From: Actinomycetota bacterium
Lineage (GTDB): Bacteria > Actinomycetota > Actinomycetes > S36-B12
DNA length: 38,754 bases
Direction: 5' to 3'
Assembly: GCA_029978585.1 (NCBI GenBank)
Contig: JAPOJD010000005.1
Span: forward strand, 1 to 38,754
Of the stretch, positions 5,773 to 31,466 are shown one piece after another. Position numbers and translations under genes: made by a program. The notes beneath the pieces are model-generated. The model was not told the origin of the DNA, ran no database searches, and saw only the letters and a list, made by a program, of their open reading frames with translations. Position 1 is the first letter of the stretch; each line of letters opens with the position of its first letter.

Positions 5773-5800
5773 GCGGACATGCTCCCACGCGGGCGTGGCG

Positions 5801-7501: not shown

Positions 7502-7641
7502 GGCACCACGGTAGGGGAGCCAGTGGACTCCCGGATCGTGTGACGGGGTTCACGGTTTTGCGGGGGATCGGTCAGCGCGCGATCAGCGGACCGCATGCTG
7601 GAGTACACCACTGCATCACACGTCAGGAGTACACCGGTCGC

Positions 7642-7812: not shown

Positions 7813-7827
7813 CCGCTGCGCGGTTCG

Positions 7828-9566: not shown

Positions 9567-9621
9567 GGGGTCACCGTACGTGGCCCCCGGCATGATGGAC
9601 CCCTCGACCCCGGGAGGACCC

Positions 9622-10623
9622 ATGACCCGCACCCCGTTGCAGACCCATCGCTGGCATCCGCCACGAGACCTCGGCCGGCAGGGGCCGTTCGCGCCCAATG
9701 CCCTCCTGGCATCGCTGGAGCTCATGCCGATCCCCGGGAGCGGTGCCGAGGACGTCGCGGTCGATGCCGAGGGACGCATCTACACGGGAACCCGCGAGGG
9801 CTACCTGCTGAGGCTCAGCCCGGATGGCCGCCACGTCGAGCGCATCGCGCAGACCGGCGGACGCCCCCTGGGCATCGAGGTGCACCCCGACGGATCCCTC
9901 GTCGTCTGCGACGCCCACCGCGGCCTGCTGCGAGTGGATCCCGAGACGGGAGACATCACGGTTCTGGTGAGCGAGGTCGAGGGAAAGCCACTCACGCTCA
10001 CGAACAACTGCTCGATCGCTGGCGACGGCACCGTCTACTTCTCAGAATCCTCCCAGCGCTTCAGCCTCGACGAGTTCAAGGGCGACATCCTGGAGCACAG
10101 TTCCACCGGGCGGCTGCTCCGGCGCAACCCCGACGGCTCAGTCGACGTGCTGCTCACCGGACTGTCCTTCGCGAACGGCGTCGCCCTCGCGGAGGACGAG
10201 TCCTTCGTCCTGGTGGCGGAGACCGGCGCCTACTGTGTCACCCGCCTGGACCTCACCGGACCTACGGCTGGACGGCGTTCGCTCATCATCGAGAACCTTC
10301 CGGGTATGCCGGACAATATGAGCCGGGGCAGTAACGGGGTGTTCTGGATCGCGATGCCGACGGAGCGCAACAAATTGCTGGATCAGTTGCTGCCGCGCGG
10401 CGGTGCCCTGCGGAAGGCCATCTGGGCGATGCCGGAACGCCTGCAGCCCGACGTCACGCGAATCGCGTGGGCGGTCGGGATCGATGGCGAGGGCTCGGTC
10501 GTGCGCAATCTCCAGGGACCGGGTACGGCGTACCACTATGTGACCGGCGTCCGCGAGCATGATGGGCGCCTCTACCTGGGTAGCCTCGTCGAACCGGCCG
10601 TGGCGGTGGCCGACCTGCAATGA
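9622..10623 (+). CDS. SMP-30/gluconolactonase/strictosidine-synthase-like beta-propeller protein
   Basis: EDVAVDAEGRIYTGTREGYLLRL...GRPLGIEVHPDGSLVVCDAHRGLLRVDPETG...LTNNCSIAGDGTVYFSESS...PDNMSRGSNGVFWIA. Start ATG 9622 has a GGGAGG ribosome site upstream. Confidence 0.88.
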   Translation: MTRTPLQTHRWHPPRDLGRQGPFAPNALLASLELMPIPGSGAEDVAVDAEGRIYTGTREGYLLRLSPDGRHVERIAQTGGRPLGIEVHPDGSLVVCDAHRGLLRVDPETGDITVLVSEVEGKPLTLTNNCSIAGDGTVYFSESSQRFSLDEFKGDILEHSSTGRLLRRNPDGSVDVLLTGLSFANGVALAEDESFVLVAETGAYCVTRLDLTGPTAGRRSLIIENLPGMPDNMSRGSNGVFWIAMPTERNKLLDQLLPRGGALRKAIWAMPERLQPDVTRIAWAVGIDGEGSVVRNLQGPGTAYHYVTGVREHDGRLYLGSLVEPAVAVADLQ

Positions 10624-10644
10624 TCGCGCTAGTGCCCGGGCCGG

Positions 10645-12273: not shown

Positions 12274-12294
12274 GCGGAAGACCCTAGACCCTCG

Positions 12295-13017
12295 TCAGGC
12301 TTCGAGCTCTGGATGGACGTCCTCTTCTGCGAGCGGGATGGTCTGGGAGCTGCCCGCGAGCCAGCCGACGAGACGAAGTCCGTAACCCACTGAGGGGCCA
12401 ATGAGCAGCGCGAACAGCAGCGTTGCGAGCCCCACCTTGCCTCCGAGTAGCCACCCGACCGCGAGGACCACTACCTCGATGCTGAGGCGGATGGGAGTGA
12501 CCGCGATCCCGGTGCGTTCATGGATGCCCGTCATGAGACCGTCGCGTGGGCCGGGTCCGAGGTTGGTGGTGAGGTAGAGGCCACTGCCGATCCCCACGAG
12601 GACGATTCCCGCCAGTGCCTGGGCGAGTCGCCAGCCGAACGACGTGGGCGCGGGCAGCACCATGATCATCACCTGCAGGGCCGTGGCGATGACGATGGCG
12701 TTGGCGATCGTTCCCAGGCCCGGCTTCTCTCGCAGCGGGATCCACAGGAGCAGGACGGCGACACTGGTGAAGAAGGTCGCGAGTCCGATCGAGATTCCGG
12801 TGCGCAGGGAGATGCCCTGGGCGAAGACGGTCCATGGGGCGTTGCCGAGGGCTGCGTCTACGAGCATCGCCTCGCCCGTCCCGAAGAGCCACAGCCCGCA
12901 CACGAGGACGACGAAGGTCAGGGGCCCAGTGCGCCAGCGTGAGCCTTCGCTGCGCCATCGCGTGCGCGGGATCGTGCGCGAGGGCACGATGCGGCGCCAG
13001 GCGTCTCCTATCGACAC
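12295..13017 (-). CDS. YczE/YitT-like integral membrane protein
   Basis: GLWLFGTGEAMLVDAALGNAPWTVFAQGISLRTGISIGLATFFTSVAVLLLW; GIGSGLYLTTNLGPGPRDGLMTGI. Confidence 0.8.
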   Translation of the reverse strand: MSIGDAWRRIVPSRTIPRTRWRSEGSRWRTGPLTFVVLVCGLWLFGTGEAMLVDAALGNAPWTVFAQGISLRTGISIGLATFFTSVAVLLLWIPLREKPGLGTIANAIVIATALQVMIMVLPAPTSFGWRLAQALAGIVLVGIGSGLYLTTNLGPGPRDGLMTGIHERTGIAVTPIRLSIEVVVLAVGWLLGGKVGLATLLFALLIGPSVGYGLRLVGWLAGSSQTIPLAEEDVHPELEA

Positions 13018-13024
13018 GGCGCCC

Positions 13025-14251
13025 TCAATCGATGACGGCGCGACGGGGACCGATACCCCAGGCGAGGTAGTTCCAGCACCAGTCCGCGACGACGCTCACC
13101 CGGTTGCGACCACCAGCGAGGTAGGCGACGTGGAGGGCCAGCCAGGCAAGCCACGCGGGGGTCCCGTGCAGCCGGATGCCCTGCGGGGTCTCGGCGACAG
13201 CACGCCGCCGCCCGATCGTTGCCATCTGCCCCTTGTCGGCGTACCGGAACGGCTCGAGCAGGCGCCCTGAGACGAGCGCTGCGATATTGCGGACCACGTG
13301 GCGGCCCTGCTGCATCGCCACCGGGGCGACCATCGGCAGGGGAGGATCGCCGTCCTCGGAGAACGCGGCCGTGTCGCCGACGACCCACACGTCGGGGACG
13401 CCGGGCACCCGCAGGAACTCGTCCACGATCACCCGCCGACTCGAGCCGGTGCGCGCCAGGGACGACCACTGCTCCGGGGCCGCGACACCGGCAGCCCACA
13501 CGACCGTCCCGGCCGGGAGGATCTCGCCCGACTTCAGGTGGACGTCCTTCTCGTACATCCGGTCCACCGCACAGTCCAACTTGACGGTGACTCCGAGATC
13601 CTCCAGTTCCTCGCGCGCATGATTGCTCGACTCCTCGCTGAATGACGGAAGCAGGCGCGGACCGGCCTCGACGAGGGAGACACTCGCGTAACTCGCGATC
13701 TCCGGGTACTCGCGGTCCATGCTTCGCTGGAGCTCAGCCACGGATCCGGCGACCTCGACTCCGGTGGGCCCGCCTCCGACAACGACGACGCGCAGCGCTT
13801 CACGAGGGAGCCGTCCCTCCTGCACGTCCTCGTAGGTGCCGAACAGGCGCTGCTTGATGGTGCGGGCATCCTTCAGTGACTTCATCTGGAGGGCGTGCTC
13901 CTCGACGCCCGGGATGCCGAACGTCGTCCCGACGCTGCCCGTGGCGATGATGAGTTGGTCATAGTCCAGGTCCTGGCCGTCGCTCAGGCGCACCCGGTGA
14001 CGCTGAGCGTCGACGCTCACAACCTCGCCACGCACGAAGGTCACGCCCGGGATCGCCGCGCGCACCGGGTAGGCGATGTCGTCCTCGGGGAGGCCACCGG
14101 TCGCGACCTGGTAGAGCAGGGGGCTGAAGAGCTGGTAGGGGTGCCGGTCGACGAGCACGACCTCGACGCCCTTCACGCGATGCGCCGCCTTCGCGGCCTC
14201 CAAGCCGGCGAAGCCCGCTCCGATCACCAGGACCCTCGTTGCGCCAGCCAC
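13025..14251 (-). CDS. ndh: Type II NADH dehydrogenase / NAD(P)/FAD-dependent oxidoreductase
   Basis: RVLVIGAGFAGLEAAKAA, VVVVGGGPTGVEVAGSVAEL, VWVVGDTAAF, C-terminal AWLAWLALHVAYLAGGRNRVSVVADWCWNYL. Confidence 0.9.
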   Translation of the reverse strand: MAGATRVLVIGAGFAGLEAAKAAHRVKGVEVVLVDRHPYQLFSPLLYQVATGGLPEDDIAYPVRAAIPGVTFVRGEVVSVDAQRHRVRLSDGQDLDYDQLIIATGSVGTTFGIPGVEEHALQMKSLKDARTIKQRLFGTYEDVQEGRLPREALRVVVVGGGPTGVEVAGSVAELQRSMDREYPEIASYASVSLVEAGPRLLPSFSEESSNHAREELEDLGVTVKLDCAVDRMYEKDVHLKSGEILPAGTVVWAAGVAAPEQWSSLARTGSSRRVIVDEFLRVPGVPDVWVVGDTAAFSEDGDPPLPMVAPVAMQQGRHVVRNIAALVSGRLLEPFRYADKGQMATIGRRRAVAETPQGIRLHGTPAWLAWLALHVAYLAGGRNRVSVVADWCWNYLAWGIGPRRAVID

Positions 14252-14280
14252 GTGCGCATCCTCTCAGCAGAAGCCCGATG

Positions 14281-14745
14281 TCACGACCGGGGACAGACCT
14301 CCCCCGGCGTCGACGCGGGGGAACTCCCCTTGGCGAGCGCGAGATAGAGATTCGCGCAGTTGGCCGCGACGTCGGGACTCACCTTCGCGGCATCGCCCAG
14401 GATGAGAAGCGCCGCATCGACACCTTCAGCCTCCTTGACAGCCTGCAGTTGCGGCAGGACTTGGTCGTAGGCAGAGATGGACGCGGCGGCCGTCGGCGGG
14501 GCACTCAGCCGCGCAATCTCGTCCTCGGAGAGTTCGGGTACGTTGATGCCGTGACGATGGGCTTGGGCGGCGACCACCTCCTTGACCGACGGCAGGTCAT
14601 CCACAGCGGCGTCGTCTGAGGAACGCCACGCACCGATGAGCAGGAGGGCGGCGACGGCAAGGCACACCAGCGCCACGCCGCCCGCGACGATGCCGCCCGC
14701 CCTCTCCACGATTCGATGGTCCCCTTGAGCGCGCTGACTGTCCAC
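14281..14745 (-). CDS. Hypothetical protein with one N-terminal transmembrane helix
   Basis: ORF MDSQRAQGDHRIVERAGGIVAGGVALVCLAVAALLLIGAW..., intact, no family recognised. Confidence 0.6.
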   Translation of the reverse strand: MDSQRAQGDHRIVERAGGIVAGGVALVCLAVAALLLIGAWRSSDDAAVDDLPSVKEVVAAQAHRHGINVPELSEDEIARLSAPPTAAASISAYDQVLPQLQAVKEAEGVDAALLILGDAAKVSPDVAANCANLYLALAKGSSPASTPGEVCPRS

Positions 14746-14796
14746 TCGCGCCGGGCTCCGAGGGAATCAGGGCCCTGCGGCGTAGTGTCCTGTCCC

Positions 14797-16326
14797 GTGA
14801 CCGAGGCCAAGGTGGAAACGCAGGCGTACCCGCGCAGGTGGTGGAGTCTCGTCGGACTCTGCCTCGTGACGGCCCTGGTCTGGGTGACCGCCAGCGATAT
14901 CAGCATCGCCCTGCCGACCATCGGGCGCGAGCTGGGCGGCAGCATGGACAGCCTCCAGTGGGCGGTCAACGGCTACTTCCTCGCCGGAGCATTCATCATC
15001 GTGGGAGGTCGCCTCGGCGACATCTACGGACGTCGCCTCATCTTCGTCATCGGTACAGCCCTGGTCATGATCGGCTCGGTCGTGGCGGGGATCGCGCCCA
15101 GTTCCATGATCCTCATCGCCGGCCGGGTCATCGAGGGTCTCGGTGCCGCGCTGATCCTGCCGACCGCGCTGTCCACGATCGCGGTCATCTTCACCGGCAA
15201 GCAGCGCGACACCGCCATCGCGGCGTGGATTGCCGTGTGCTGGGGAGCTCAGGCTTTCGGGCCCCTTGTCGGCGGGCTCGTCGTCGACAGCCTCGGGTGG
15301 CGCTGGCTGTTCTGGCTCAACCTCCCGATCGCGGCCGGAGCCATCGCCCTCATCTGGTGGTCGACGCCGGAGACCCGCGATTCGGGGGCCGACCGCCGCA
15401 TCGACTACCTCGGGGTCCTCACGCTCGTCGGCGGCATCTTCGTCATGTCCTACGCCCTGGTGCAGGCCGACACTCTCCCCATTCCCGCCTTCCTGGGGCT
15501 GCTCGGCCTGTCCGTGCTCATCCTGGTCCTGTTCGTGGTCATCGAGCGACGGGTCTCCACGCCGATCGTCGTCCTGTCCATCTTCCGCAAGGTGCGATTC
15601 GACGGCGCGGTCCTGTCGAACCTCATCGCGAACTTCGTCTTCGGCGCGGTGATCTTCTTCATGGCGCTCTACCTGCAGGTCGTGGAGGGCTACGGCCCGT
15701 TGCAGGCCGGGCTGCTGCTCCTGCCCGCGACCATCCCCATCCTCATCATCAATCCACTCGGCACGTGGCTCGGTCAGCGACTCGGCGCGCGCTGGCCGAC
15801 CGCGGCCGGAATGGTGCTGCTCGCGATCGCGGCATTCCTGCTCACCGATCTGAGCGGGGTCTACAGCTCGGCGATCATGCCGTTCATCCTCATCGGCGCC
15901 GGCATCGGCCTGCAGATCACCCCGTGCGCCGTCACCGCGGTGGAGGATCCCGGCGATGCAGGTGAGGGTGTCGCATCAGGCATCTTCAAGGCCGCGTCGA
16001 TGATCGGCGGCTCGCTCGGTGTCGCAGTGGCGACAGCGGTGTTCCAGTCCGACGCTCGCTCGCAGGTCACCACCCTGCTCCAGTCGCCAACGGCGGACAC
16101 GATGGAGAAGGTCATCTCCACGCTCACCGGGGGGCTCTCGGTCCGAGACCTTGCCTCGGTGGTCCCCGGCGACGCTCAGGCCCTCGTGGACCAGGTGTTC
16201 GAGCATGCGGTGGGCCGGGCCATGTGGCCCTCCATTGCCGTCTCGATCCTCGGCGTCATCATCGCGCTGGTGCTACTACGCCAGCGCCGCGAGCCGGGAG
16301 CCAGCACCGACCGGCTGGAATCCTGA
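14797..16326 (+). CDS. MFS transporter, DHA2 (14-TMS, EmrB/QacA) type
   Basis: VWVTASDISIALPTIGRELGGSMDSLQWAVNGYFLAGAFIIVGGRLGDIYGRRLIFVIG. Start at GTG 14797. Confidence 0.92.
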   Translation: MTEAKVETQAYPRRWWSLVGLCLVTALVWVTASDISIALPTIGRELGGSMDSLQWAVNGYFLAGAFIIVGGRLGDIYGRRLIFVIGTALVMIGSVVAGIAPSSMILIAGRVIEGLGAALILPTALSTIAVIFTGKQRDTAIAAWIAVCWGAQAFGPLVGGLVVDSLGWRWLFWLNLPIAAGAIALIWWSTPETRDSGADRRIDYLGVLTLVGGIFVMSYALVQADTLPIPAFLGLLGLSVLILVLFVVIERRVSTPIVVLSIFRKVRFDGAVLSNLIANFVFGAVIFFMALYLQVVEGYGPLQAGLLLLPATIPILIINPLGTWLGQRLGARWPTAAGMVLLAIAAFLLTDLSGVYSSAIMPFILIGAGIGLQITPCAVTAVEDPGDAGEGVASGIFKAASMIGGSLGVAVATAVFQSDARSQVTTLLQSPTADTMEKVISTLTGGLSVRDLASVVPGDAQALVDQVFEHAVGRAMWPSIAVSILGVIIALVLLRQRREPGASTDRLES

Positions 16327-19985: not shown

Positions 19986-20429
19986 GTGGACGACGACGTT
20001 GACCGGTCACTCCTGCGGCTGCTGGGCCGGGACGGTCGGATGTCCTTCGCCGACCTGGCTCGCGAGACGGGACTGTCGACCTCCGCCGTGCATCAGCGGG
20101 TACGTCGACTTGAGCAACGAGGGATCATCACCGGCTACCAGGCCCTGGTCGACCCCCGACTGGTCGGGCTGCCGCTGACCGCCCTGATCGACCTGACCCC
20201 GCTCGACCCGGCCGCCCCTGACGACGTTCCAGACCGGTTGCGCGACTTCGGGGAGATCGAGTCATGCTGGTCGGTGGCAGGGGCGGCGTCGTACGTTGTC
20301 AAGGTGCGGGTGGGCGAGCCCGCGGAATTGGAGTCCCTCCTCGCGCGGATCCGGTCCGCGGCGGAGGTGGCCACGAGGACCACCATCGTTCTGTCGACGC
20401 CCTTCGAGTCCCGGCCCCCGCAGCTCTAG
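19986..20429 (+). CDS. Lrp/AsnC family transcriptional regulator
   Basis: DDDVDRSLLRLLGRDGRMSFADLARETGLSTSAVHQRVRRLEQRGIITGYQALVDPRLVGLPL, then a RAM-like domain. GTG start at 19986. Confidence 0.92.
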   Translation: MDDDVDRSLLRLLGRDGRMSFADLARETGLSTSAVHQRVRRLEQRGIITGYQALVDPRLVGLPLTALIDLTPLDPAAPDDVPDRLRDFGEIESCWSVAGAASYVVKVRVGEPAELESLLARIRSAAEVATRTTIVLSTPFESRPPQL

Positions 20430-20453: not shown

Positions 20454-21509
20454 TCACTCCTCGAAGAGGGGGACCGCGGCGTCGTCGGCCCACGTGAGTC
20501 CGCAGGCTTCATCGCGACGCGGAAGCGCGTGGTCACCGTGATCCCGCAGCGCAGCGAGGAACATCTCTCCGCCCACGCGGACCTGACACAGCGCATGGTC
20601 CCCCTGGAAGAAGACTTCGACAACCTCGCCCCGGACCCGCGATCCCTCCGAGCCTTCGGGCACCAAGGTGACAGCCTCCGGTCGCAGGGCGATCGCGATC
20701 GCCTCCCGGGCACTATCCGCGACTGCGAACGGCGGAACTCCGTCCGCCATCCATTGGCCGTGACCGTAGGTCCCTCTCAGGATGGTGCTGTTGCCGATGA
20801 AGTCGGCAACAAAGATGCTGCGGGGCCTTCGATACAGATCCATGGGACTTGCCAGTTGGCGCACAACACCGCGGTCCAGCACAGCGACCCGGTCGGCCAA
20901 GCTCATCGCCTCGTCCTGGTCGTGGGTGACGACGACGAAGGTGATCCCCACCTCGTGCTGGAGTCGCTTCAACTCCATCTGCATCTCACCGCGGATCTTG
21001 CGGTCAAGGGCGGAAAGCGGCTCGTCCAGGAGGAGGAGGCGAGGCCGCTTCACGATGGCACGGGCAAGGGCCACCCGCTGGCGCTGCCCCCCGCTGAGGG
21101 TCTTCGGAAGGGCATCACGCTTGTCCGTGAGGCCCACGGTGGCGAGTACCTCGCCCACCCGTGTGCGGATCTCATCGCGCGGGACCTTGTCGCACACGAG
21201 CCCATATCCCACATTGCGCTCCACGGTCATGTGGGGGAAGAGCGCGTACGACTGGAACATGAGGTTGACGGCCCGCTTCTCCGGGGGGATCGGCAGCAGG
21301 TCCTGCCCATCGAGGGTGACCGTCCCCGAGTCCGGCTGCTCGAATCCCGCGATGACTCGTAGCAGCGTGGTCTTGCCGCAGCCCGACGGTCCCAGCAGAG
21401 CAAAGAACTCGTTTTCGCGGATCTGGAGGCTCACGTCATCGAGGGCGCGGACATCACCGAACGATCGGCTGACGGAATGAATGTCCAGGAGCACGTCACC
21501 CGACGCCAT
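20454..21509 (-). CDS. potA: Spermidine/putrescine-type ABC transporter ATP-binding protein (PotA-like)
   Basis: FFALLGPSGCGKTTLLRVIAGFEQPDSGTVTLDGQDLLPIPPEKRAVNLMFQSYALFPHMTV; LSGGQRQRVALARAIVKRPRLLLLDEPLSALD; C-terminal TOBE-like region. Confidence 0.9.
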   Translation of the reverse strand: MASGDVLLDIHSVSRSFGDVRALDDVSLQIRENEFFALLGPSGCGKTTLLRVIAGFEQPDSGTVTLDGQDLLPIPPEKRAVNLMFQSYALFPHMTVERNVGYGLVCDKVPRDEIRTRVGEVLATVGLTDKRDALPKTLSGGQRQRVALARAIVKRPRLLLLDEPLSALDRKIRGEMQMELKRLQHEVGITFVVVTHDQDEAMSLADRVAVLDRGVVRQLASPMDLYRRPRSIFVADFIGNSTILRGTYGHGQWMADGVPPFAVADSAREAIAIALRPEAVTLVPEGSEGSRVRGEVVEVFFQGDHALCQVRVGGEMFLAALRDHGDHALPRRDEACGLTWADDAAVPLFEE

Positions 21510-21510
21510 G

Positions 21511-22293
21511 TCAGGACCTGCTTCCGCGCAGCGAGTCGCTGAGTCGAGCCGTTCGTTGCGCCAGCAAGACTGCGACGAAGGACACCAGGAGGAGCAGGGT
21601 CGCGAGCGCGTTCACCTGGGGTGAAACACCGAATCGCACACTGGAGTAGATCACGATTGGCAGCGTCGGCTCGGCTGGAGAGGCAGTGAAGAACGCCACG
21701 GTGAACTCGTCCAGGCTCAGGGTGAAGGCGAGCAGGGCGCCGGCCAGGACCGCCGGGCGAATGCCCGGCAGTGTGATACTCCAGAACGTCTTGATGCTCG
21801 ACGCCCCCAGGTCGCGACTGGCCTCCTCGAGGCTCGGATCGAGGCTCGACAGCCGCACGCGGACGACGGCGGCGACGAACGCGATCCCGAACACGGAATG
21901 GGCCAGGATCACGCTCACCGGTCCCAGGGTGAAGCCAACCAGCGTGTAGAACGCCAGCAGCCCGATCGCGAGCATGATGTCGGGCATGACTGCCGGAGCG
22001 GCCGCCGCGGCATCGAGGAACCTCGAGGGGAAGTACCTCTCCAGTGCCAGGGCGAGCAGGGTGCCCAGGACCACCGAGATGATTGTCGTTCCTATTGCCA
22101 CGATGAGCGTGGTCCGCAGGCCTCCCATGATGTCCGCGTCCTGCAGCAGGGCCGGATACCACTCGAGGGAGAAGCCGGTCCACAGGTAGGCGCTGTCCGA
22201 AGCATTGAAGCTCATGACGACGACGACCAGGATCGGAATGTAGAGGAATGCGTAAAGGATCCAAAGCGGTAGGGCGCTGATCGCTTTCGACAT
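21511..22293 (-). CDS. potC: ABC transporter permease, PotC-like
   Basis: ILYAFLYIPILVVVVMSFNASDSAYLWTGFSLEWYPALL; SLEEASRDLGASSIKTFWSITLPGIRPAVLAGALLAFTLSLDEFTVAFF (EAA loop). TGATG overlap with potB. Confidence 0.9.
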   Translation of the reverse strand: MSKAISALPLWILYAFLYIPILVVVVMSFNASDSAYLWTGFSLEWYPALLQDADIMGGLRTTLIVAIGTTIISVVLGTLLALALERYFPSRFLDAAAAAPAVMPDIMLAIGLLAFYTLVGFTLGPVSVILAHSVFGIAFVAAVVRVRLSSLDPSLEEASRDLGASSIKTFWSITLPGIRPAVLAGALLAFTLSLDEFTVAFFTASPAEPTLPIVIYSSVRFGVSPQVNALATLLLLVSFVAVLLAQRTARLSDSLRGSRS

Positions 22294-23171
22294 CAGGCCC
22301 CCCACCTGCGAGTCCGCCGCGATGCACTGGCCTGGAACATGACGATAACCACCAGCAGGGCCAGCACCATGAGGGCGAGCGCGGACCCGAACGGCCAATC
22401 CCGCGACTTGAGGAACTGGTCGCGCACCAGGTTGCCGATCATCTGTGAGTTCCCGCCGCCCAGGAGCTCGGGGATCACGAAGTTGCCCAGGCTGGGAATG
22501 AACACGAAGAGGCAGCCGGTGATGATGCCCGGCAGCGTTAGCGGCAGGAGGATGGTGCGGAACCGTCGCCATGGTCCGGCACCGAGATTGCGGGCGGCCT
22601 CGAGGAGAGTCGGGTCGAGTCGCTGCAGCGAGGCATAGATCGGCAGCACCATGAGGGGGATGTAGGCGTAGGTGAGTCCCAGGATCACGGCCTGCCTGGT
22701 GTAGAGGAAATCAACCGGTCCCAGGCCGACCAGCCCGAGGGCGTCGCTCAGGATCCCCTCGCGATTGAGCAGGATGATCCAGGCGTACGTGCGGATCAGG
22801 AAGTTCGTCCAGAAGGGAAGCACCACGGCCACCAACGCCGCCGTCTGCCATGTTGCCGGCAGCCGCGTGATGGCGAGCGCGGCCGGGAACCCGATGAGGA
22901 ACGCGAAGAAGGTGGCCAGGCCGGCGTTCACGACGCTCGACACCAGGATCCCGAGGTAGAGCGGCTCGAAGAGGCGGCCGATGTTGTCCAGGGTGACCGG
23001 GCCCTGGACGCCGCCGAAGCGCCCTGCGGTCAGGAACGCATAGGCGATCACGAGGGTTAGCGGGACCACCATGAGGACGATGAGGTACGTCAGGGCGGGC
23101 ACGCTGGCAAGGGCACGCAGCAGGGGCCCGTCGCCGTGGCGACGGACCCCTGCTGACGTGCGTGAACTCAA
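22293..23171 (-). CDS. potB: ABC transporter permease, PotB-like
   Basis: LPFWTNFLIRTYAWIILLNREGILSDALGLVGLGPVDFLYTRQAVILGLTYAYIPLMVLPIYASLQRLDPTLLEAARNLGAGPWRRFRTILLPLTLPGI. Confidence 0.9.
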   Translation of the reverse strand: MSSRTSAGVRRHGDGPLLRALASVPALTYLIVLMVVPLTLVIAYAFLTAGRFGGVQGPVTLDNIGRLFEPLYLGILVSSVVNAGLATFFAFLIGFPAALAITRLPATWQTAALVAVVLPFWTNFLIRTYAWIILLNREGILSDALGLVGLGPVDFLYTRQAVILGLTYAYIPLMVLPIYASLQRLDPTLLEAARNLGAGPWRRFRTILLPLTLPGIITGCLFVFIPSLGNFVIPELLGGGNSQMIGNLVRDQFLKSRDWPFGSALALMVLALLVVIVMFQASASRRTRRWGA

Positions 23172-24286
23172 CTGGCTTGGACCTCAGTGGCGATCTGCTG
23201 GTAGATCTTGGCCGCCTCGCCCAGGTCGATGAGGCCTTCGCCCTTGGCCAGGTCCGCCGGCGTCATGGCGATGTTGGGGTAGTCGGCGCCAAGCTCAGCC
23301 GCTGCCTTCTCTGCCACGGCCTTGTTGGGGCTCTTGTAGAGGATGTTGTTCGTCATCCACGACTGCATCTCGTCGCCGATCATGAAGTTGATGTAGGCCA
23401 TCGCGGCCTCCTTGTTCTTGCTCGACTTCAAGACGACCATCGTGTCCGCCCACAGGTCAGCGCCCTCCTTCGGGACCACGAACTTGACGTTCGGGTCGCC
23501 GGAGTAGTTGCACCAGCCATCCCAGGCCACCGCCATGTTGACCTCACCGGACGCCAGCCGCTCGTAGAAGGTCACGTCGTCAAATCCGAGAAGGGTCGGC
23601 TTCGTCTTGAGGAGCTGCTGCTTGATCTGGTCCAGTTGCCCCTGATCCGTCGTGTTGGCGCTGAATCCCAGGGCCTTGGCCGCGGGGAGGTTCATCCACG
23701 GCTGGGTAGCCAGCATGAGCGTCTTCTTGACGTTCTCCGGAGCCGGGTTCAGCAGGTCATTCCACGAGGTGGGCGGGGCAGACATCAGGTCCTCGCGATA
23801 GCAAATGCCCGTCGTACCCCACGCGTAGGGCACGCTGAACTTGTTGCCCGGGTCGAAGGCCAGGTTCTTGCTCTCCGGGTAGAGGTTGGCCAGATTGGGC
23901 ACGAGCTTGGGATCGATGGGCTCGAGCAGTCCCGCCTCGTTCAGCGCCTGGGCGTACTGCCCTGAGACGAAGGCGACATCGATGCCCGGGTCACCGCCCG
24001 CGGTGAGCTTGCCGACGATCTCCTCGTTGGTGGCGTGCTTGGCCACAGTGATGTTCGCCTTCGTGGTGTCGGTGAACTTCAGGGCGACGTCAGGATCCAT
24101 GTAGGCATCCCAGTTGCTCACCACGATGGACTGCTTGCTCAGGTCGGCATTGGGATCGAGCGACGCCGAGGGGCTTGCCTCTCCGCCCGACGATCCCCCT
24201 CCGCATGCGGCCAGGAGGACGGCGCAGACCGCTCCCGCGATGCCGAGGATCGAGGCCCTGCTGGCCCGTGTCCGCTGTCGTGCCAT
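23168..24286 (-). CDS. potD: Extracellular substrate-binding lipoprotein, PotD-like
   Basis: Signal peptide with lipobox LLAAC-GGG; IVVSNWDAYMDPDVALKFTDTTKANITVAKHATNEEIVGKLTAGGDPGIDVAFVSG typical of PotD/PotF. Start at ATG 24286. Confidence 0.88.
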   Translation of the reverse strand: MARQRTRASRASILGIAGAVCAVLLAACGGGSSGGEASPSASLDPNADLSKQSIVVSNWDAYMDPDVALKFTDTTKANITVAKHATNEEIVGKLTAGGDPGIDVAFVSGQYAQALNEAGLLEPIDPKLVPNLANLYPESKNLAFDPGNKFSVPYAWGTTGICYREDLMSAPPTSWNDLLNPAPENVKKTLMLATQPWMNLPAAKALGFSANTTDQGQLDQIKQQLLKTKPTLLGFDDVTFYERLASGEVNMAVAWDGWCNYSGDPNVKFVVPKEGADLWADTMVVLKSSKNKEAAMAYINFMIGDEMQSWMTNNILYKSPNKAVAEKAAAELGADYPNIAMTPADLAKGEGLIDLGEAAKIYQQIATEVQAS

Positions 24287-24315
24287 CTCTTCTCCTTCTC
24301 TCCTGTGATGCCGGG

Positions 24316-24996
24316 TCACGAGGGCTCCTCGCGACGACTCAGTCGGATCTCGGGGAGGTCCTCCAGGGGAACCCCCAGCTGCTCGCAGGCGAAGGCCCGG
24401 AGCAGGTCACGCACTCGGTCAAGCGGGGTCCACGAGTAGCCGACCACCGTACGGAAGCACAGGCCGTCGACCATCGCGCTGATGCGCTCTGCCACGACCG
24501 ACGGCTCGGCCACGGGCCGGAAGACCCCCGACACGGTGCCGTCGTCGATCAACTTGACCATCTCGTCGCGGTAGTCGGCGGCGAGTTCCTCGCACAAAGG
24601 CTGAAGCGAGGCGTCATGCGTGACCGCTGTCCATAGCTCGAGCCACAGGACGTACTCGTCGAAGAGAACTCCCGGATAGGGGAGGCTGACCTCGAGGAGG
24701 GTCGCGAGTACGCGCATGTGATCGCCGTCGCGTCGCAGTTCGGCGAACCGCTCCGCCGGCTTCCCAATGGCCCAGCGCAGGGCGTCGACGAGCATCTCGT
24801 CCTTGCTGCCGAAGTAGTAGTGGACGATTCCGGTGGAAACCCCCGCCTCGACGGCGACGTCACGCACGCGCATGCCCGCGGACCCGTCACGGACGAGAAC
24901 GCGCGCCGCCGCGGCCATGAGGTGCTCCCGGCGGTTGAGGGCGTCATCCGCCGACAGATTCGGCGGAATCGCCACGCCCACGTCAGCCAGCGCCAT
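24316..24996 (-). CDS. TetR/AcrR family regulator (BetI-like C-terminal domain)
   Basis: REHLMAAAARVLVRDGSAGMRVRDVAVEAGVSTGIVHYYFGSKDEMLVDALRW. First gene of the minus-strand pot operon. Start at ATG 24996. Confidence 0.92.
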   Translation of the reverse strand: MALADVGVAIPPNLSADDALNRREHLMAAAARVLVRDGSAGMRVRDVAVEAGVSTGIVHYYFGSKDEMLVDALRWAIGKPAERFAELRRDGDHMRVLATLLEVSLPYPGVLFDEYVLWLELWTAVTHDASLQPLCEELAADYRDEMVKLIDDGTVSGVFRPVAEPSVVAERISAMVDGLCFRTVVGYSWTPLDRVRDLLRAFACEQLGVPLEDLPEIRLSRREEPS

Positions 24997-25013
24997 ACCG
25001 TGGGACTGTACTG

Positions 25014-25027
25014 ACTGGACGTCCAGT
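25014..25027. promoter_or_regulatory. Perfect 14-bp palindrome, putative TetR operator
   Basis: ACTGGAC|GTCCAGT between divergent tetR and the saccharopine-dehydrogenase-like gene, directly upstream of a minus-strand TACAGT -10-like element. Confidence 0.75.
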
Positions 25028-25056
25028 TGGGATCGGAATCCGGGAAAGGGGCCCTC

Positions 25057-26226
25057 GTGCGTATCGGCGTCGTCGGCGGGGCGGGTGCGATGGGATCGGT
25101 CACCGTCACCGACCTGGCCGGCTCGGCGGGGGTCGACGAGGTGGTGATCGTCGACGCCGACCTCGATCGGGCGGGCGCCCTCGCGGAGCGACTGGAGGGC
25201 CGGGGAGCCGGCCTCGTGGCTCTCGGGATCGATGTTCCGCTCGATCGGAGCCTGGACGGGTGCGACGCCGTCGTCAATGCTGCGGGCCACATCCACAACA
25301 TCGCGGTCATGCAGGCCAGTCTCGAGGTGGGAGCCCACTACACCGACCTGGGCGGTCTCTTCCACGTGGCCGTCCGGCAGTACGAATGGAACGACAGATT
25401 CGCTGATGCCGGTCTCACCGCAACCCTGTCCATGGGGTCAGCCCCCGGGCTGACCAACATGCTGGCCGCTCGCGGGGTGCACCTGGGGAGCATGGACAGC
25501 GTCGAGTCCATCGAGATCGCCGACGCCGTCGTCCCGGGCCGCGCGTACCACCCGTCCGAGCCCTACGGTCCACCGTACGCCGCCGTCACTCTCATCGAGG
25601 AGTACACCGCACCCGCTCCGCAGTTCCTCGAGGGAGAGATCCGCTACTTCCCGGCCGGCTCTGGAGCCCGCAACTACCCCTTCCCCGGGGGAGACGTGGA
25701 ATGCGTCTACACCATCCACTCTGAGCCGGCCACCCTCCCGCGCTCATACGCCGATCGCGGCCTCCGGCGAGTGGAGTGGCGACTCGGCCTGGCCCCGGCC
25801 GATCACGTGCGTCTGCTGTCCTTCGTGGCCGCGGGTCTGGCCAGCGAGGAGCCCGTGGAGGTCGACGGGACCCGCGTCCGACCCGCGGACGTCCTCGCCG
25901 CGGTGCTGACACGGCAGGCCCGCCGGGAGGTTGCGACTCCCGATCCCGCGGCGGTTGAGTGGTTCCGCGTCATCACGTCGGGAATGCGCCAGGATCGCCC
26001 GGTCACCGTCACCTGCGACGTGGAGGTTACTGACCCGCCGTCGGGGGAGTTCCCCGGAGGCGCCTGGGCGACCGGCGTGCCGCCCTCGATCGCAGCGCAG
26101 ATCATGGGGTCAGGCCGCGCCCTGCGGACCGGAGTGCACGGCCCGGAGCTCACCATGCCGCTGGACCTGTTCTTCACTGAACTTGCCGGGCGGGGCATGA
26201 TCCCGCTAGACCGGATCGACGACTGA
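25057..26226 (+). CDS. Saccharopine dehydrogenase / lysine-6-dehydrogenase-like NAD(P)-binding oxidoreductase
   Basis: RIGVVGGAGAMGSVTVTDLAGSAGVDEVVIVDADLDRA; DAVVNAAGHIHNIAVMQASLEVGAHYTDLGGLFHVAVRQYEWNDRFADAGLTATLSMGSAPGLTNMLA. Confidence 0.87.
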   Translation: MRIGVVGGAGAMGSVTVTDLAGSAGVDEVVIVDADLDRAGALAERLEGRGAGLVALGIDVPLDRSLDGCDAVVNAAGHIHNIAVMQASLEVGAHYTDLGGLFHVAVRQYEWNDRFADAGLTATLSMGSAPGLTNMLAARGVHLGSMDSVESIEIADAVVPGRAYHPSEPYGPPYAAVTLIEEYTAPAPQFLEGEIRYFPAGSGARNYPFPGGDVECVYTIHSEPATLPRSYADRGLRRVEWRLGLAPADHVRLLSFVAAGLASEEPVEVDGTRVRPADVLAAVLTRQARREVATPDPAAVEWFRVITSGMRQDRPVTVTCDVEVTDPPSGEFPGGAWATGVPPSIAAQIMGSGRALRTGVHGPELTMPLDLFFTELAGRGMIPLDRIDD

Positions 26227-26240
26227 ACCTCGGAGGCACC

Positions 26241-27530
26241 ATGCCGGACCGACCGCTCACCGTGCTGCTGGCTGCCGAGAGCGCCTACGGACCCACCAAC
26301 AACTGCATCGGGATCGGCGCCGAACTCGTCGCGAGGGGACACCGCGTCGTCTTCGCCGCTGAGGAATCCTGGGCGGGCAAGATCGAGCCGCTCGGGATCG
26401 AGGAGCGGCTCGTGTCCATGGCGCCCCCACCCGAGGAGGAGGCGGCCGCCGGGCAGTTCTGGATCGACTTCATTCGCGACACGTCACCCGAGTTCCGCAA
26501 GAGCACCTTCGAGCAGATCACGACCTTCATCGAGCCGGTGTGGCGCAGCCTGATGGACGGAGCGAAGTACGCCAATCCGCAGTTTGCCGACATCGTCGAG
26601 GATGTCCAGCCGGATGTCATCGTGCAGGACAACGTGTCGGCATTCCCTGCGCTCAAGGCCGCCGGTCGTCCCTTCGTGCGACTGGTCTCATGCCAGCCGC
26701 TCGAGATGACCGGCCCGGGACTCCCCCCTGCGCTCTCGGGCCTTCCCGCGGACGATCCGAGCCAATGGCAGGCATGGCGCGACGAGTACGCCCGCGTCAA
26801 CGCGAGCCTCTGGTCGGAGTACAACGAGTTCTCCCAGGAGTCCGGTGCCGGCCCACTCCCGGATGGGGAGTTCAACTACGTCGGTGACGCCAATATCTAC
26901 ATCTACCCGGCTGCCGTCGACTACGTCGATCGCCGGCCCCTCGACTCCACCTGGCATCGCGTGCAGTCATCCGTTCGCCGCACCGAGCAGCCCATCGACA
27001 TACCCGCGCACATCCTCGACGGTGACGGCTCGCTCATCTACCTATCCCTCGGATCGCTCGGGGGCGCCGACGTCGACCTCATGACGCGTCTCACCGGCTT
27101 CCTTGCAGACAGCCCCCATCGCTTCATCGTGAGCAAGGGCCCTCGCGCCGATGAGTGGGACCTCCCCGACAACATGTGGGGGGCCGCAATGGTTCCGCAG
27201 ACGACACTGCTGGAGAAGGTCGACCTCGTCATCACCCACGGTGGCAACAACACCACCTGCGAGTCCTTCCACTTCGGCAAGCCCATGGTGGTCCTGCCCC
27301 TGTTCTGGGACCAGTACGACAACGCTCAGCGGGTCGACGAGACCGGGTTCGGCAAGCGCCTGGACACCTACCGCGTCGAAAGGGATGAGCTGACCGGGAC
27401 CATCGACTCGCTCCTTGCCGACCGCGCACTGCGCGACCGCATGGCGGAGATCTCTCGCCAGATCAGGGCGGAGGATGGCGTACGCCGCGAGGCCGAGATC
27501 ATCGCCGAACTGGGACAGTCCGCGGCCTGA
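26241..27530 (+). CDS. GT1-type glycosyltransferase (MGT/UGT-like, nucleotide-sugar dependent)
   Basis: N-terminal NNCIGIGAELVARGHRVVFAAEESW; C-terminal sugar-nucleotide box DLVITHGGNNTTCESFHFGKPMVVLPLFWDQYDNAQRVDETGFGKRL. GGAGG ribosome site before ATG 26241. Confidence 0.87.
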   Translation: MPDRPLTVLLAAESAYGPTNNCIGIGAELVARGHRVVFAAEESWAGKIEPLGIEERLVSMAPPPEEEAAAGQFWIDFIRDTSPEFRKSTFEQITTFIEPVWRSLMDGAKYANPQFADIVEDVQPDVIVQDNVSAFPALKAAGRPFVRLVSCQPLEMTGPGLPPALSGLPADDPSQWQAWRDEYARVNASLWSEYNEFSQESGAGPLPDGEFNYVGDANIYIYPAAVDYVDRRPLDSTWHRVQSSVRRTEQPIDIPAHILDGDGSLIYLSLGSLGGADVDLMTRLTGFLADSPHRFIVSKGPRADEWDLPDNMWGAAMVPQTTLLEKVDLVITHGGNNTTCESFHFGKPMVVLPLFWDQYDNAQRVDETGFGKRLDTYRVERDELTGTIDSLLADRALRDRMAEISRQIRAEDGVRREAEIIAELGQSAA

Positions 27531-27532
27531 GG

Positions 27533-28480
27533 ATGAAGCCCGACCTCGTCGAACGCGATCTGCTCGAGATCCCCGCCCGTCTCGTCCAGCTCGCAACGGA
27601 GCTCGAGCACGACAATCCATGGCCCCCCCTGGCCCCCGCGGGTCCGCTGCTGAGCGGCATGGGCTCCTCTCAGTACGCCGCGCGCACGGTCTCGGGATGG
27701 CTGCGCGCCGCCGGGGTCGATGCCATTGACGAGATCGCGTCGACGGACCCCGGCTGGCCTGGCGGCGATGGCGCATGCGCGATCCTCATCTCTGCCTCGG
27801 GAGGCTCCGCGGAGACTCTCGACCGGATGGAGCGGCTTTCCGGAGGCACTCAGCGGATCGCTCTCGTCAACTCCCGTGACTCGGCCCTCGCACGGCAAGC
27901 CGACGTGGTCGTCGACATGCTCGCGGGTCCGGAGGACGGCGAGGTTGCGTGCCGCACCTACCGGCACACGCTGGCCCTGCTCCTCGCCCTCGCCCTGCCA
28001 CGCCGCGAGGTGGCCGCCGCGTGCCGCGCGGCCGCAGAGCGAACCGAGGAACTCCTCGCCGACTCCGCCTGGCTCGACCCCGTGGACGAGGTTCTCTGGC
28101 CCGCGGGAACGACGCACTGGATCGCGCCGGAGAGTCGGATCGGATCGGCGCTGCAGTCGGCGCTCATGGTCCGCGAGATCCCGCGTCGACCTGCGGTGGG
28201 ATGCGAGACCGGCGACTGGAGCCACGTCGACGTCTACCTCACCCTGACAACCGACTACCGATGCGTCGTATTCACGGGATCCCGGTGGGACGCGCAGGCG
28301 GCCGACTGGCTGTCCCGGCGTGGATCCCAGGTCGTCTGCGTGGGGGACGGGCTCGGCATCCCGGGGGAGACGACCCTGCCCATGCCTGCCGACCCTCTCG
28401 TCCGCATGCTCTGCGAGCCGCTCGTCGCAGAACTCCTCGCCCTGCGCTGGTGGCACCGAGACCCCGTCGTCGCTGCATGA
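27533..28480 (+). CDS. SIS-domain protein (sugar-phosphate isomerase/deaminase-like)
   Basis: GPLLSGMGSSQYAARTVSGWL, AILISASGGSAETLDRMERLSGGTQRIALVNSRDSALARQADVVVDMLAGPEDGEVACRTYRHTLALLLALA (GlmS/FrlB/AgaS-like SIS signatures). Confidence 0.82.
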   Translation: MKPDLVERDLLEIPARLVQLATELEHDNPWPPLAPAGPLLSGMGSSQYAARTVSGWLRAAGVDAIDEIASTDPGWPGGDGACAILISASGGSAETLDRMERLSGGTQRIALVNSRDSALARQADVVVDMLAGPEDGEVACRTYRHTLALLLALALPRREVAAACRAAAERTEELLADSAWLDPVDEVLWPAGTTHWIAPESRIGSALQSALMVREIPRRPAVGCETGDWSHVDVYLTLTTDYRCVVFTGSRWDAQAADWLSRRGSQVVCVGDGLGIPGETTLPMPADPLVRMLCEPLVAELLALRWWHRDPVVAA

Positions 28481-29751
28481 GCCTGCTCGACCAGGTGCGA
28501 GACAGCACCCGAGGGCTCAAGGCGGACGCGCTCCTCCCGGCCCTTCGCCGCGGCCACGACGACGACATCGAGGAGATCACCGACGTCGCCGCGCTGAGCG
28601 ATCGGTCGGCCGTGGCGGCCGTGCGACTCGTTGACGGACGCGACATCTTCGTGCCCATGGTGCTCGCCGCGCGGGACGGCTCAGCACGTCCTCGGGGGAC
28701 CCAGCCCGACAGGGCATGGCGTCGAGCCGAGCCGGCCGACGCGATCAGCATGAGCGCGCTTGGAGCGCCACCACCGCTTCGGGTGGACCACGTCAATCCG
28801 CTTCCCATGCTGGACCCTCAGCGAGAGCGGGGACTCGACGTCGACATGACAAATGACGTGCGCATTGTCGATGACGCGGTGGTCGCCAAGTGGCAGCTCC
28901 TTCGACAACCGGACGCGATCGTCGGCCAACGTGTCGTCGCTCACCTTTCCGCGGCCGGCTTCACCGACATGCCCGAGCCGTTCGCGACGGTGACCTGGGA
29001 TGACGACGTCGTCCTGACAGCGACCCGATTCCTCCCCGAGGCCGTTGACGGCTGGGACTGGATGCTCGACGAGGTCCTGCGGATGCTGGCTCACGGGGGA
29101 GCTAGCCCCTCATGGCCAGCCGAGATTGGAAGCCTGACCGCACGCATGCATGCCGCGGCCGCTCGACCGACTCCGGTGATCGACCGGCCCGTCGCTCGCG
29201 CTCCACTCCTCGACCTGGCCCAGCACTATCAGGCGCTGCTCGACACCGCGCTCGATCCCGAATTGCAGACCGCGGTGCAGAGGTGGCGCGCGCGTTTCAC
29301 CGAGGCCATCGATGTCCTCGCTGGCACGCAGGACGCCGAGGTGGTTCCCCTTCACCGCGATCTGCATCCGGGTCAGTTCCTACGCTGGCGGGGTGGCATT
29401 GCCATATGCGACTTCGATGGCAACCCGGCGTTCCGGGCTGAAGAGCAAGACATGCGCGGACCGACCGCCTACGACGTGGCCGGCATGCTGCGCGGCTTCG
29501 ATCACGTGGCCATCGCCGCCGCCAATCGCGCCGGAGCATCCGACGCTCTCGACCATGCCCGGGCGTGGGCGCGCGATGCGCGCCGGCAAGCACTGGATGC
29601 CTACCTCGCGGAACCAGGACTCCCCCCGCTGGACACCACCATCCTCGGCGCCCTCGAATCCCTGTCACCGTTGCACGAGGCGGTCTATGCCGCGACCTAC
29701 CTGCCGCGCTGGCGCTACGTACCTCTCGCCGTGCTCAATTGGGGCTGGTGA
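28477..29751 (+). CDS. Maltokinase/aminoglycoside-phosphotransferase-fold kinase, possibly glucosamine-kinase type
   Basis: VVPLHRDLHPGQFLRWRGGIAICDFDGNPAFRAEEQDMRGPTAYDVAGMLRGFDH (catalytic HxDLHxGQ plus DFDGNP); ATGA overlap with the SIS gene. Substrate is inference. Confidence 0.78.
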   Translation: MSLLDQVRDSTRGLKADALLPALRRGHDDDIEEITDVAALSDRSAVAAVRLVDGRDIFVPMVLAARDGSARPRGTQPDRAWRRAEPADAISMSALGAPPPLRVDHVNPLPMLDPQRERGLDVDMTNDVRIVDDAVVAKWQLLRQPDAIVGQRVVAHLSAAGFTDMPEPFATVTWDDDVVLTATRFLPEAVDGWDWMLDEVLRMLAHGGASPSWPAEIGSLTARMHAAAARPTPVIDRPVARAPLLDLAQHYQALLDTALDPELQTAVQRWRARFTEAIDVLAGTQDAEVVPLHRDLHPGQFLRWRGGIAICDFDGNPAFRAEEQDMRGPTAYDVAGMLRGFDHVAIAAANRAGASDALDHARAWARDARRQALDAYLAEPGLPPLDTTILGALESLSPLHEAVYAATYLPRWRYVPLAVLNWGW

Positions 29752-29752
29752 A

Positions 29753-30784
29753 TCAAGCGCTCATCTCGCGGGCGATCGCCGCGACGAACCCGTCGACGTC
29801 TTCGGCGGTCGTGTCCCACGAGCACATCCAGCGCACCTCGCCCGTCGCTTCATCCCACTCGTAGAATCTGTACTCACTTTGCAGCCTCGCCGTCACATCG
29901 CGGGGGATGATCGCGAAGACCGCATTGGCATCGACGCGTCGCCTGACCTCAACACCTGGGATCGCCTGAACCCCCGCGAGTAGTCGCTGGGCCATGCCGT
30001 TAGCGTGGCTGGCATTCCGCAACCACAGGTTGTCGGTGAGCAATGCACACAGTTGGGCACTCACGAAGCGCATCTTGCTCGCCAGCTGCATGGATGACTT
30101 GCGTAGAAACGGCACCGCCCGGGCCAGCGACGGGTTGAGTACAACGACCGCTTCGGCGCCCATGGCGCCGTTCTTTGTGCCACCGAAGGACAGGATGTCG
30201 ATTCCCACGTCCGTGGTGATAGCTCGCAGGGGAACGCCCAGGCCCGCCGCCGCGTTGGCAATGCGTGCACCGTCGAGGTGGACCTTCATACCGAGGGAAT
30301 GGACGTGTTCCACCAGCGAGCCGAGCTGGTCAACCGAATACGCGGTTCCGAGTTCGGACGACTGCGTGACGGTCACGACCGCCTGCTGCGATCGATGCAC
30401 GTCTCCGACGCGCACTGAGTGGACATCGACCGCGGCCGGGGTCAGCAGGCCATCTGCTACCGGCACGGTCCAGAGCTTCAGCCCGGCCACCTTCTCCGGG
30501 GCCCCTCCCTCATCGACGTTCACGTGAGCCGTCTCGGCGCAGATGACGGCCTCCCAGGGCCGGCAGATCGACTGCAGGGCGACGACATTGGCTCCCGTTC
30601 CATTGAATACCGGGAAGACCTCTGCCTGGCCGCCCAGATGATCGCGCATCAGGTCGCGTAGACAAGCCGTCTCGTCGTCCTCGCCATAGGCCACGGCGTG
30701 ACCGTCATTCGCTCGCGCGATGGCAGCGAGCACCTCGGGGTGCACTCCCGCGTAGTTGTCGCTCGCGAAGCCACGCCAGGTCAC
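29753..30784 (-). CDS. Low-specificity L-threonine aldolase-like PLP enzyme (beta-eliminating lyase family)
   Basis: FASDNYAGVHPEVLAAIARANDGHAVAYGEDDETACLRDLMRDHLG; MKVHLDGARIANAAAGLGV; DILSFGGTKNGAMGAEAVVV (PLP-Lys segment). Confidence 0.9.
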   Translation of the reverse strand: MTWRGFASDNYAGVHPEVLAAIARANDGHAVAYGEDDETACLRDLMRDHLGGQAEVFPVFNGTGANVVALQSICRPWEAVICAETAHVNVDEGGAPEKVAGLKLWTVPVADGLLTPAAVDVHSVRVGDVHRSQQAVVTVTQSSELGTAYSVDQLGSLVEHVHSLGMKVHLDGARIANAAAGLGVPLRAITTDVGIDILSFGGTKNGAMGAEAVVVLNPSLARAVPFLRKSSMQLASKMRFVSAQLCALLTDNLWLRNASHANGMAQRLLAGVQAIPGVEVRRRVDANAVFAIIPRDVTARLQSEYRFYEWDEATGEVRWMCSWDTTAEDVDGFVAAIAREMSA

Positions 30785-30785
30785 G

Positions 30786-31466
30786 TCAGCCCTCCGTGAG
30801 GTCAATGCGGCCGCTCTCCGGGGCGCCCGTCGGCTCCAGGATGCCAGCAATCACCTCGGCGAGTTCAGTCGTGTCGGTGTACCCGGGGAACTCCTTCTCC
30901 GGGCTTTCGACGCGCATGCTTTCGTTCACAAGGGCCTTGACCGCGACGATGATCGCCCGTGCGGACGTGTCCTTGAACGAGTTGTCGAGTCCGCCCACCC
31001 AGGTCTCTGCTGCCGCCTTGGCCGTCGCGTATGCCACGTTGCCGGCCGTGGGCTTGGCGGCGGCGGTGCTGGACACCATGACGTAGCGACCCGCATCGGA
31101 TCGCATCAGCGGCTCCCGGAACACGACCGTCGTGGTTCGCACGGTGCCGAAGACCCCCGGGGAGATGGCATCCCACGCTGCGAGCGCATCGCCGTCGACG
31201 GTCTTCGATCCGCGCCAGCCGCCCACCAGGTGGATGACCGCGTCGATCCGTCCGTGCCTCGCAAGAAGGTCGTCGCGGAACCCGGCTAGCGCGTGGACGT
31301 CGAGCAGGTCCACGACCGCCCAATCTCCACCGACGGACTCGGCAAGCGGGCGCGCCAGCGACTCCTCGCGGTCGACGACGATGACGAACCAGTCCTGGGC
31401 GAGTGCATGCGCGACCGCCGTTCCTCCCATGCCAGCGCCGAGAATCACCGCGACGGGGCGGTTCAC
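30786..31466 (-). CDS. SDR-family NAD(P)-dependent oxidoreductase
   Basis: VAVILGAGMGGTAVAHALAQDWFVIVVDREE; IDAVIHLVGGW; VMVSSTAAAKPTAGNVAYATAKAAAETW. Confidence 0.85.
   Translation of the reverse strand: MNRPVAVILGAGMGGTAVAHALAQDWFVIVVDREESLARPLAESVGGDWAVVDLLDVHALAGFRDDLLARHGRIDAVIHLVGGWRGSKTVDGDALAAWDAISPGVFGTVRTTTVVFREPLMRSDAGRYVMVSSTAAAKPTAGNVAYATAKAAAETWVGGLDNSFKDTSARAIIVAVKALVNESMRVESPEKEFPGYTDTTELAEVIAGILEPTGAPESGRIDLTEG

Follow-up and report, generated by a model that had tools for sequence, protein, structure and literature searches.

The window, that is, the whole 38,754-nucleotide stretch analyzed here (contig JAPOJD010000005.1 of assembly GCA_029978585.1, probably from a freshwater actinobacterium), contains two divergent gene arms flanking one 14-bp perfect palindrome (Table 1). 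The minus-strand arm, tetR-potD-potB-potC-potA, encodes a TetR-family regulator and a Pot-type ATP-binding cassette (ABC) importer, in which neighboring genes overlap by 4 bp or 1 bp or, in one case, are separated by 1 bp. The plus-strand arm runs from a gene for a saccharopine-dehydrogenase-like (SDH-like) oxidoreductase (sdh) through those for a GT1 glycosyltransferase and an SIS protein to a kinase gene, with a 14-bp gap between sdh and GT1, a 2-bp gap between GT1 and SIS, and an ATGA overlap between SIS and kinase. Pfam and NCBIfam models back the family assignments of all nine genes, except that the kinase has no Pfam match. Open reading frame coordinates and these models confirm the gene identities, order, spacing, and palindrome given in an earlier note on this DNA.

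Table 1 Features of the divergent cluster and its two neighbors, in window coordinates
Feature	Position	Strand	Remarks
potA-like importer ATPase	20454..21509	-	ABC_tran + TOBE_2; TIGR01187 348.9 bits vs. cut-off 355.6
potC-like permease	21511..22293	-	BPD_transp_1; ATG start at 22293
potB-like permease	22293..23171	-	BPD_transp_1
PotD-like lipoprotein binding protein	23168..24319	-	Substrate-binding protein (SBP) family; other possible ATG start at 24286
TetR-family regulator (tetR)	24316..24996	-	TetR_N + BetI-type C-terminal domain
14-bp perfect palindrome	25014..25027		Divergent promoter region; likely operator
Saccharopine-dehydrogenase-like oxidoreductase (sdh)	25057..26226	+	Saccharopine dehydrogenase N and C domains
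GT1-fold uridine diphosphate (UDP)-glycosyltransferase	26241..27530	+	EryCIII-like_C/UDPGT
Double-SIS phosphosugar protein	27533..28480	+	SIS; GlmS-isomerase/NagB-II fold
Glucosamine-kinase-family kinase (maltokinase fold)	28477..29751	+	NF041273; SjGlcNK structure match
Lrp/AsnC-type regulator adjoining potA	19986..20429	+	Neighbor, candidate role only; same position in related genomes
Threonine-aldolase-type pyridoxal phosphate enzyme	29753..30850	-	Convergent neighbor kept in the lineage

We inspected 20 stretches around the best relatives of the kinase, and found GT1 and SIS genes adjoining it in nearly every one; about half also had potDBCA, with orders and orientations varying. With GT1 as a second anchor, a scan of genome contigs yielded 80 loci, in which partner genes were counted within 9 kb of GT1: an aldehyde dehydrogenase (64 loci), a kinase match (61), SIS (58), potB and potC (57), a TetR of one family (57), and a flavin adenine dinucleotide (FAD) oxidase (18). 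SIS, kinase, potABC, and aldehyde dehydrogenase were all present within this distance in 43 of the 55 loci with enough flank. The 80 loci span Streptosporangiaceae, Micromonosporaceae, Agromyces, Leucobacter, Cellulomonas, Acidimicrobiales, metagenome-assembled genomes of Chloroflexota, and others. A further count, anchored on neither arm, used 297 genomes drawn evenly from the window's class. The window-type PotD subfamily occurred in 21 of them and the GT1 subfamily in 43, and the two genes were 1.2–4.8 kb apart in 20 of the 21 genomes with PotD. SIS relatives occurred in 52 genomes, 38 of which also had GT1 (SIS and GT1 within 12 kb in 33/38). Fisher tests on co-occurrence alone gave P = 3e-18 for PotD/GT1 and P = 9e-31 for SIS/GT1, values to be taken as indicative since related genomes are not independent.

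These counts bear on the simplest alternative, that two unrelated operons lie divergently by chance. In some members of the class the GT1-SIS-kinase triad does lack the importer, a point in favor of this alternative, but 20 colocalizations in 21 genomes, in scrambled orders and on scrambled strands and at an estimated chance of about 0.002 per genome, make it extremely improbable, and we rejected it on the colocalization of the PotD and GT1 subfamilies. The comparison supports the importer and enzyme arms as one functional unit, conserved in many Actinobacteria and some Chloroflexi. The earlier note had taken the arms for one system, to be given up if they proved never to be linked in orthologous loci; they are linked, with PotD <5 kb from GT1 in all of those 20 genomes. 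The only PotD-subfamily genome of the 21 without a GT1 relative (L152, G265:C5:151484-152578) has an aldehyde dehydrogenase (38%) nearby. At L159 and L134 the GT1 gene is present as two tandem copies, with no importer, kinase, or SIS gene nearby. At L150 (G246, on a 1.33-Mb contig), importer, dehydrogenase, GT1, kinase, and SIS stand together; the genome is a streamlined one of 1.3 Mb, and the genes that such a genome keeps are likely to be important.

The palindrome ACTGGACGTCCAGT lies between the two divergent gene starts (24996 and 25057) and is unique in the window at two or fewer mismatches (0.11 matches expected). Three other genomes of the lineage (L058, L059, and L060) have the block around it, GACTGTACTGACTGGACGTCCAGTTGGGA, without a single difference, and this identity of palindrome and flanks fits the expectation for a shared operator. 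A sigma-70 scan of the divergent region gave no promoter match. The TetR of the window lineage is only 27% identical to the TetR that holds this position in sister lineages.

The window lineage also differs in its oxidizing enzyme. In sister lineages of the same family (L052, L054, L057, and L165), the importer, GT1, kinase, and SIS genes are accompanied by the dehydrogenase, the FAD oxidase, or both, whereas the window lineage (with L058–L060) has neither beside the cluster and carries the SDH-like gene first in the plus-strand operon; other aldehyde dehydrogenases are encoded elsewhere in the window's genome. The SDH-like protein matches Sacchrp_dh_NADP (50.7 bits) and Sacchrp_dh_C (52.3 bits), both over the cut-offs, and its nearest solved proteins are saccharopine/carboxyspermidine dehydrogenases (4ina, 4rl6, and 8deb). 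It thus resembles carboxyspermidine/carboxynorspermidine dehydrogenases in both domains and in its nearest structures, but is far below the cut-off of the carboxynorspermidine synthase model NF043000 (29.5 vs. 800 bits) and has unlike partner genes. Its structure model (mean predicted local distance difference test score, pLDDT, 49) was too poor for a fold search. We considered sdh as a core cluster gene and rejected it, because its close relatives adjoin GT1 only in the window's lineage and the relative near GT1 at L158 is distant (30%). The earlier note had counted sdh as a regular member, which does not hold beyond this lineage; elsewhere there is an aldehyde dehydrogenase. The window locus is a rewired, lineage-specific variant of a conserved actinobacterial cluster.

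Among the relatives, the dehydrogenase that usually accompanies the cluster scores above the cut-off of the aminobutyraldehyde dehydrogenase model NF010000 (630 vs. 615), and aminophosphonate/pipecolate oxidases are the closest match of the FAD partner. L158 shows a run of aminotransferase, Lrp, aldehyde dehydrogenase, potA, potD, potB, potC, FAD oxidase, GT1, and agmatinase (559–16042), in which GT1 is 50% identical and of the same family, potD is only 28% identical, and the agmatinase is over its cut-off. This run and the cluster relatives tie GT1 to amine oxidation in two different settings, and the run possibly encodes an agmatine/polyamine pathway that includes a glycosyltransferase. Next after it comes a gene like that of carboxynorspermidine synthase (178.7 bits). 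The L158 run resembles the polyamine genes SCO5655–SCO5671 of Streptomyces coelicolor (PMC5403932) plus a glycosyltransferase. The window's relatives share with those genes a potABCD-type importer, a PuuB-like oxidoreductase, and aminobutyraldehyde-type dehydrogenases; in S. coelicolor, however, the amine is masked by gamma-glutamylation (GlnA3), and the main text of that study mentions no glycosyltransferase or kinase (PMC5403932).

The earlier note had called the importer polyamine-type, which is right for the family and not for the ligand pocket. A TOBE_2 ATPase, two permeases, and a binding protein are encoded in a single operon, as in the spermidine/putrescine importer PotABCD, and none of the window's importer subunits reaches the PotABCD equivalog cut-offs. 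We aligned 55 PotD-like proteins, the window's included, with E. coli PotD, whose numbering is used here and whose D168, E171, W229, W255, and D257, among others, we take to be the spermidine-binding residues. W229, W255, and D257 are kept in all 55 proteins, and W34, Y37, and Y293 in nearly all; one amine subsite of PotABCD (W34, Y37, W229, W255, and D257) is thereby retained. The second acidic subsite differs: D168 is replaced by T and E171 by W in 54/55 proteins, S211 and N230 mostly by D, and S232 by W; the window protein has T168, W171, D210, D211, D230, and W232. Two PotD paralogs in the same genome (L001 and L002) retain the E. coli residues, D168 and E171 among them. A third (L003) has a different residue pattern and lies next to an aldehyde dehydrogenase that shares 58% identity with the cluster type. 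Because D168 and E171 are changed here while two paralogs of the same genome keep them, we ruled out a canonical polyamine importer as the likeliest function. The substitutions indicate that the window importer most likely carries a different cation, a small amine for which spermidine and putrescine are improbable candidates; ordinary polyamines probably enter the cell by other importers of the genome.

GT1 is the most conserved gene of the enzyme arm (54–61% identity across families), and its nucleotide-sugar site is intact, with H333 GGNNT and D357 Q358 invariant (HGGNNT..DQ motif). Such DQ donor residues are typical of UDP-glucose. In GT1 enzymes an N-terminal His is the catalytic residue; relatives of known structure have it, but the window GT1 and all its relatives with a readable motif have Pro at this position (Pro18). 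A hydroxyl acceptor has to be deprotonated more than an amine does, so the His-to-Pro change at the catalytic position fits N-glycosylation, although it is no proof of it.

The nearest solved structures over the whole length of GT1 are two spider-mite UDP-glycosyltransferases (UGTs), UGT202A2 (325.7 bits) and UGT203A2 (268.9 bits; next match 110), which differ from the bacterial cluster enzymes in having the catalytic His. The cluster GT1 family (the window and L058–L137) is nearer to these Tetranychus urticae enzymes than to any bacterial GT1 of known structure. A bacterial origin has been reported for mite UGTs (Ahn et al. 2014, as cited in PMC9167512), and the bacterial subfamily may be near the donor of the mite genes. 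The relationship to detoxifying glycosyltransferases would suit a role in detoxification, in which glucosylation would inactivate an amine or aldehyde, whether taken up or arising inside the cell, and kinase and SIS would only recycle the sugar. We regard this as quite improbable, because a coregulated importer for a toxic compound makes little sense and the oxidizing enzymes point to catabolism.

The kinase matches the glucosamine kinase model NF041273 (188.2 bits, 2.6e-55; cut-off 550) and the SjGlcNK structure 6hwj (2.9e-37), and alignment with SjGlcNK shows the catalytic loop and DFD motif to be kept (hrDlHpGQf and cDFDGN). The glucosamine signature of actinobacterial GlcNK is Q-x2-RE-x2-YA-x3-LP-x-W (PMC6520443). 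Most cluster-linked kinases outside the window lineage retain its Q and RE; those of the window and its lineage read S-x2-HE-x2-YA-x3-LP-x-W, with the glucosamine-specificity residues changed (Q405S and R408H). SjGlcNK phosphorylates glucosamine at O6 with a Km of 8 mM (PMC6520443), which is high for a dedicated substrate, so that its true substrate may be something other than glucosamine, possibly a larger relative. The SIS protein has an invariant E215 and H231, 16 residues apart, the spacing of the pair that we take to be catalytic in GlmS (E488 and H504). Its structure model (pLDDT 91) is nearest in fold to GlmS isomerase domains and NagB-II deaminases; the search of the model against solved structures did not separate isomerase, deaminase, and deglycase. 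The SIS protein scores 33.9 bits on the NagB-II model NF046059 (cut-off 430) and matches the putative deglycase 3eua weakly (9e-4). The aminosugar-type character given to these enzymes in the earlier note is accordingly sound for the kinase family and the SIS fold, but the window kinase has lost the specificity residues.

Hexosamine salvage alongside amine uptake would assign the kinase to glucosamine 6-phosphate or a related product, the SIS protein to its deamination to fructose 6-phosphate and ammonia in the manner of NagB-II, and GT1 to a separate task. The glucosamine signature outside the window lineage and the SIS matches to NagB-II and GlmS profiles and folds are consistent with it, and the many Trp and Asp residues of the PotD pocket could accommodate an amino sugar. 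We nevertheless think it unlikely: GT1 as the most constant partner and the amine-type dehydrogenases go unexplained, the window kinase lacks Q405 and R408, and the SIS score of 34 is remote from the NagB-II cut-off of 430.

The earlier note put the combination forward as a candidate undescribed system; as a wholly undescribed one it is not supported. A triad of GT1, SIS, and glucosamine kinase genes in Actinobacteria was published in 2019 (Manso et al., PMC6520443; SjGlcNK and MsGlcNK). The same three enzyme families are adjacent in the window, where the kinase keeps the SjGlcNK catalytic motifs, but the published unit was not described as including an importer, TetR, or dehydrogenase/oxidase, and the window differs further in its kinase without the Q/R glucosamine signature and in its SDH-like gene. 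Our literature search, which did not extend to subscription papers, found no paper describing the unit of importer, triad, and dehydrogenase, nor any on sugar masking in an amine pathway or on SjGlcNK since that publication. Manso et al. suggested a role in antibiotic biosynthesis and noted one species with phosphoglucomutase and uridylyltransferase neighbors (PMC6520443). In a scheme of this kind, kinase and SIS would produce amino-sugar 6-phosphates, or interconvert them, for a nucleotide sugar, GT1 would transfer the sugar to a small molecule, and the importer would bring in an amine acceptor or precursor. The neighbors just named, the biosynthetic gene clusters around the triad (PMC6520443), and the proximity of the SIS fold to GlmS isomerase domains argue for it. 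The usual companions, however, are an importer, an aldehyde dehydrogenase, and an FAD oxidase, which together look catabolic, neither a mutase nor a uridylyltransferase turned up in the window cluster, and GT1 retains the DQ residues typical of UDP-glucose; this donor-supply role is to our mind rather unlikely, if less so than salvage.

We prefer a catabolic scheme. From what the sequences support (the conserved unit, the altered importer, the enzyme families and folds, and the conserved operator-like site) we infer the substrate, the order of steps, glucosylation, deglycation, and repression. The ABC importer with its altered PotD-type protein would take up a small cationic amine, to which GT1 would attach a sugar, most likely glucose from UDP-glucose. 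The sugar-carrying compound would be oxidized by the aminobutyraldehyde-type dehydrogenase, with or without the FAD oxidase, in most relatives and by the SDH-like enzyme in the window lineage. The kinase would then phosphorylate the attached sugar at C6 and the SIS enzyme free hexose 6-phosphate and the amino product, with TetR acting at the shared palindrome to keep both arms repressed in the absence of the substrate. This order is preferred because it employs all the constant genes in sequence. As a whole, a TetR-controlled uptake-and-conversion unit for an amine pathway via a sugar-linked intermediate is our leading but tentative proposal, which we put at somewhat short of an even chance. 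Its more specific form is sugar-masked amine catabolism, with glucosylation in place of gamma-glutamylation, oxidation of the far end, phosphorylation of the sugar, and recycling of hexose 6-phosphate by an SIS deglycase; in the window lineage, an SDH-type step would have replaced the aldehyde dehydrogenase/oxidase, and the sugar specificity of the kinase would have changed. Taken in all these particulars, it is possible but doubtful.

By analogy, the scheme would parallel gamma-glutamyl masking in polyamine breakdown and the breakdown of Amadori compounds by a kinase and an SIS deglycase. Amadori-compound pathways (the frl, fra, and mop operons) combine an importer, a sugar kinase, and an SIS-type deglycase. 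The cluster shares this logic but differs in that its kinase has the maltokinase fold, its SIS protein matches the putative deglycase 3eua only weakly, and GT1 is present, so that the sugar would be attached intracellularly rather than imported.

Several observations weigh against the catabolic scheme, whose weak points are importer-free triads, the 2-amino specificity of sister kinases, and the role of the SDH-like protein. GT1-SIS-kinase triads without importer or dehydrogenase occur at L160, L161, L163, L166, and L169, and suggest that the triad may do another job, and the GT1 relatives at L130, L133, and L134 have unrelated surroundings. Sister kinases recognize a 2-amino sugar, whereas a glucosylated amine has its nitrogen at C1. 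Production of a sugar donor is another possible task for GT1, kinase, and SIS. No aldehyde dehydrogenase adjoins the window cluster, and the function of the SDH-like protein is not settled. Neighbor genes of importer-free GT1 loci (Streptomyces and Actinorugispora) and of importer-free triads showed no common theme. Three of these triads (L160, L161, and L166) belong to one actinobacterial family and have recurrent VTT/PAP2 membrane proteins nearby; those at L160 and L161 are also near NmrA-DUF2867 and photolyase genes.

The triad has been known since 2019 with no physiological role, one proposal linking it to antibiotic production. A constant amine importer with a changed pocket, together with amine-type dehydrogenases, points to amine catabolism rather than antibiotic production, and the constant neighbors of the triad offer directly testable substrates and steps. 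The gene combination is, as the earlier note held, not a textbook polyamine pathway, and it suggests an undescribed amine pathway through a sugar-linked intermediate. In the window lineage, a natural variant useful for dissecting each step, the specificity residues of the kinase and the oxidizing enzyme have changed together. An Lrp-type regulator and a threonine-aldolase-type gene bracket the cluster at matching positions in three related genomes; the latter is probably not part of the system.

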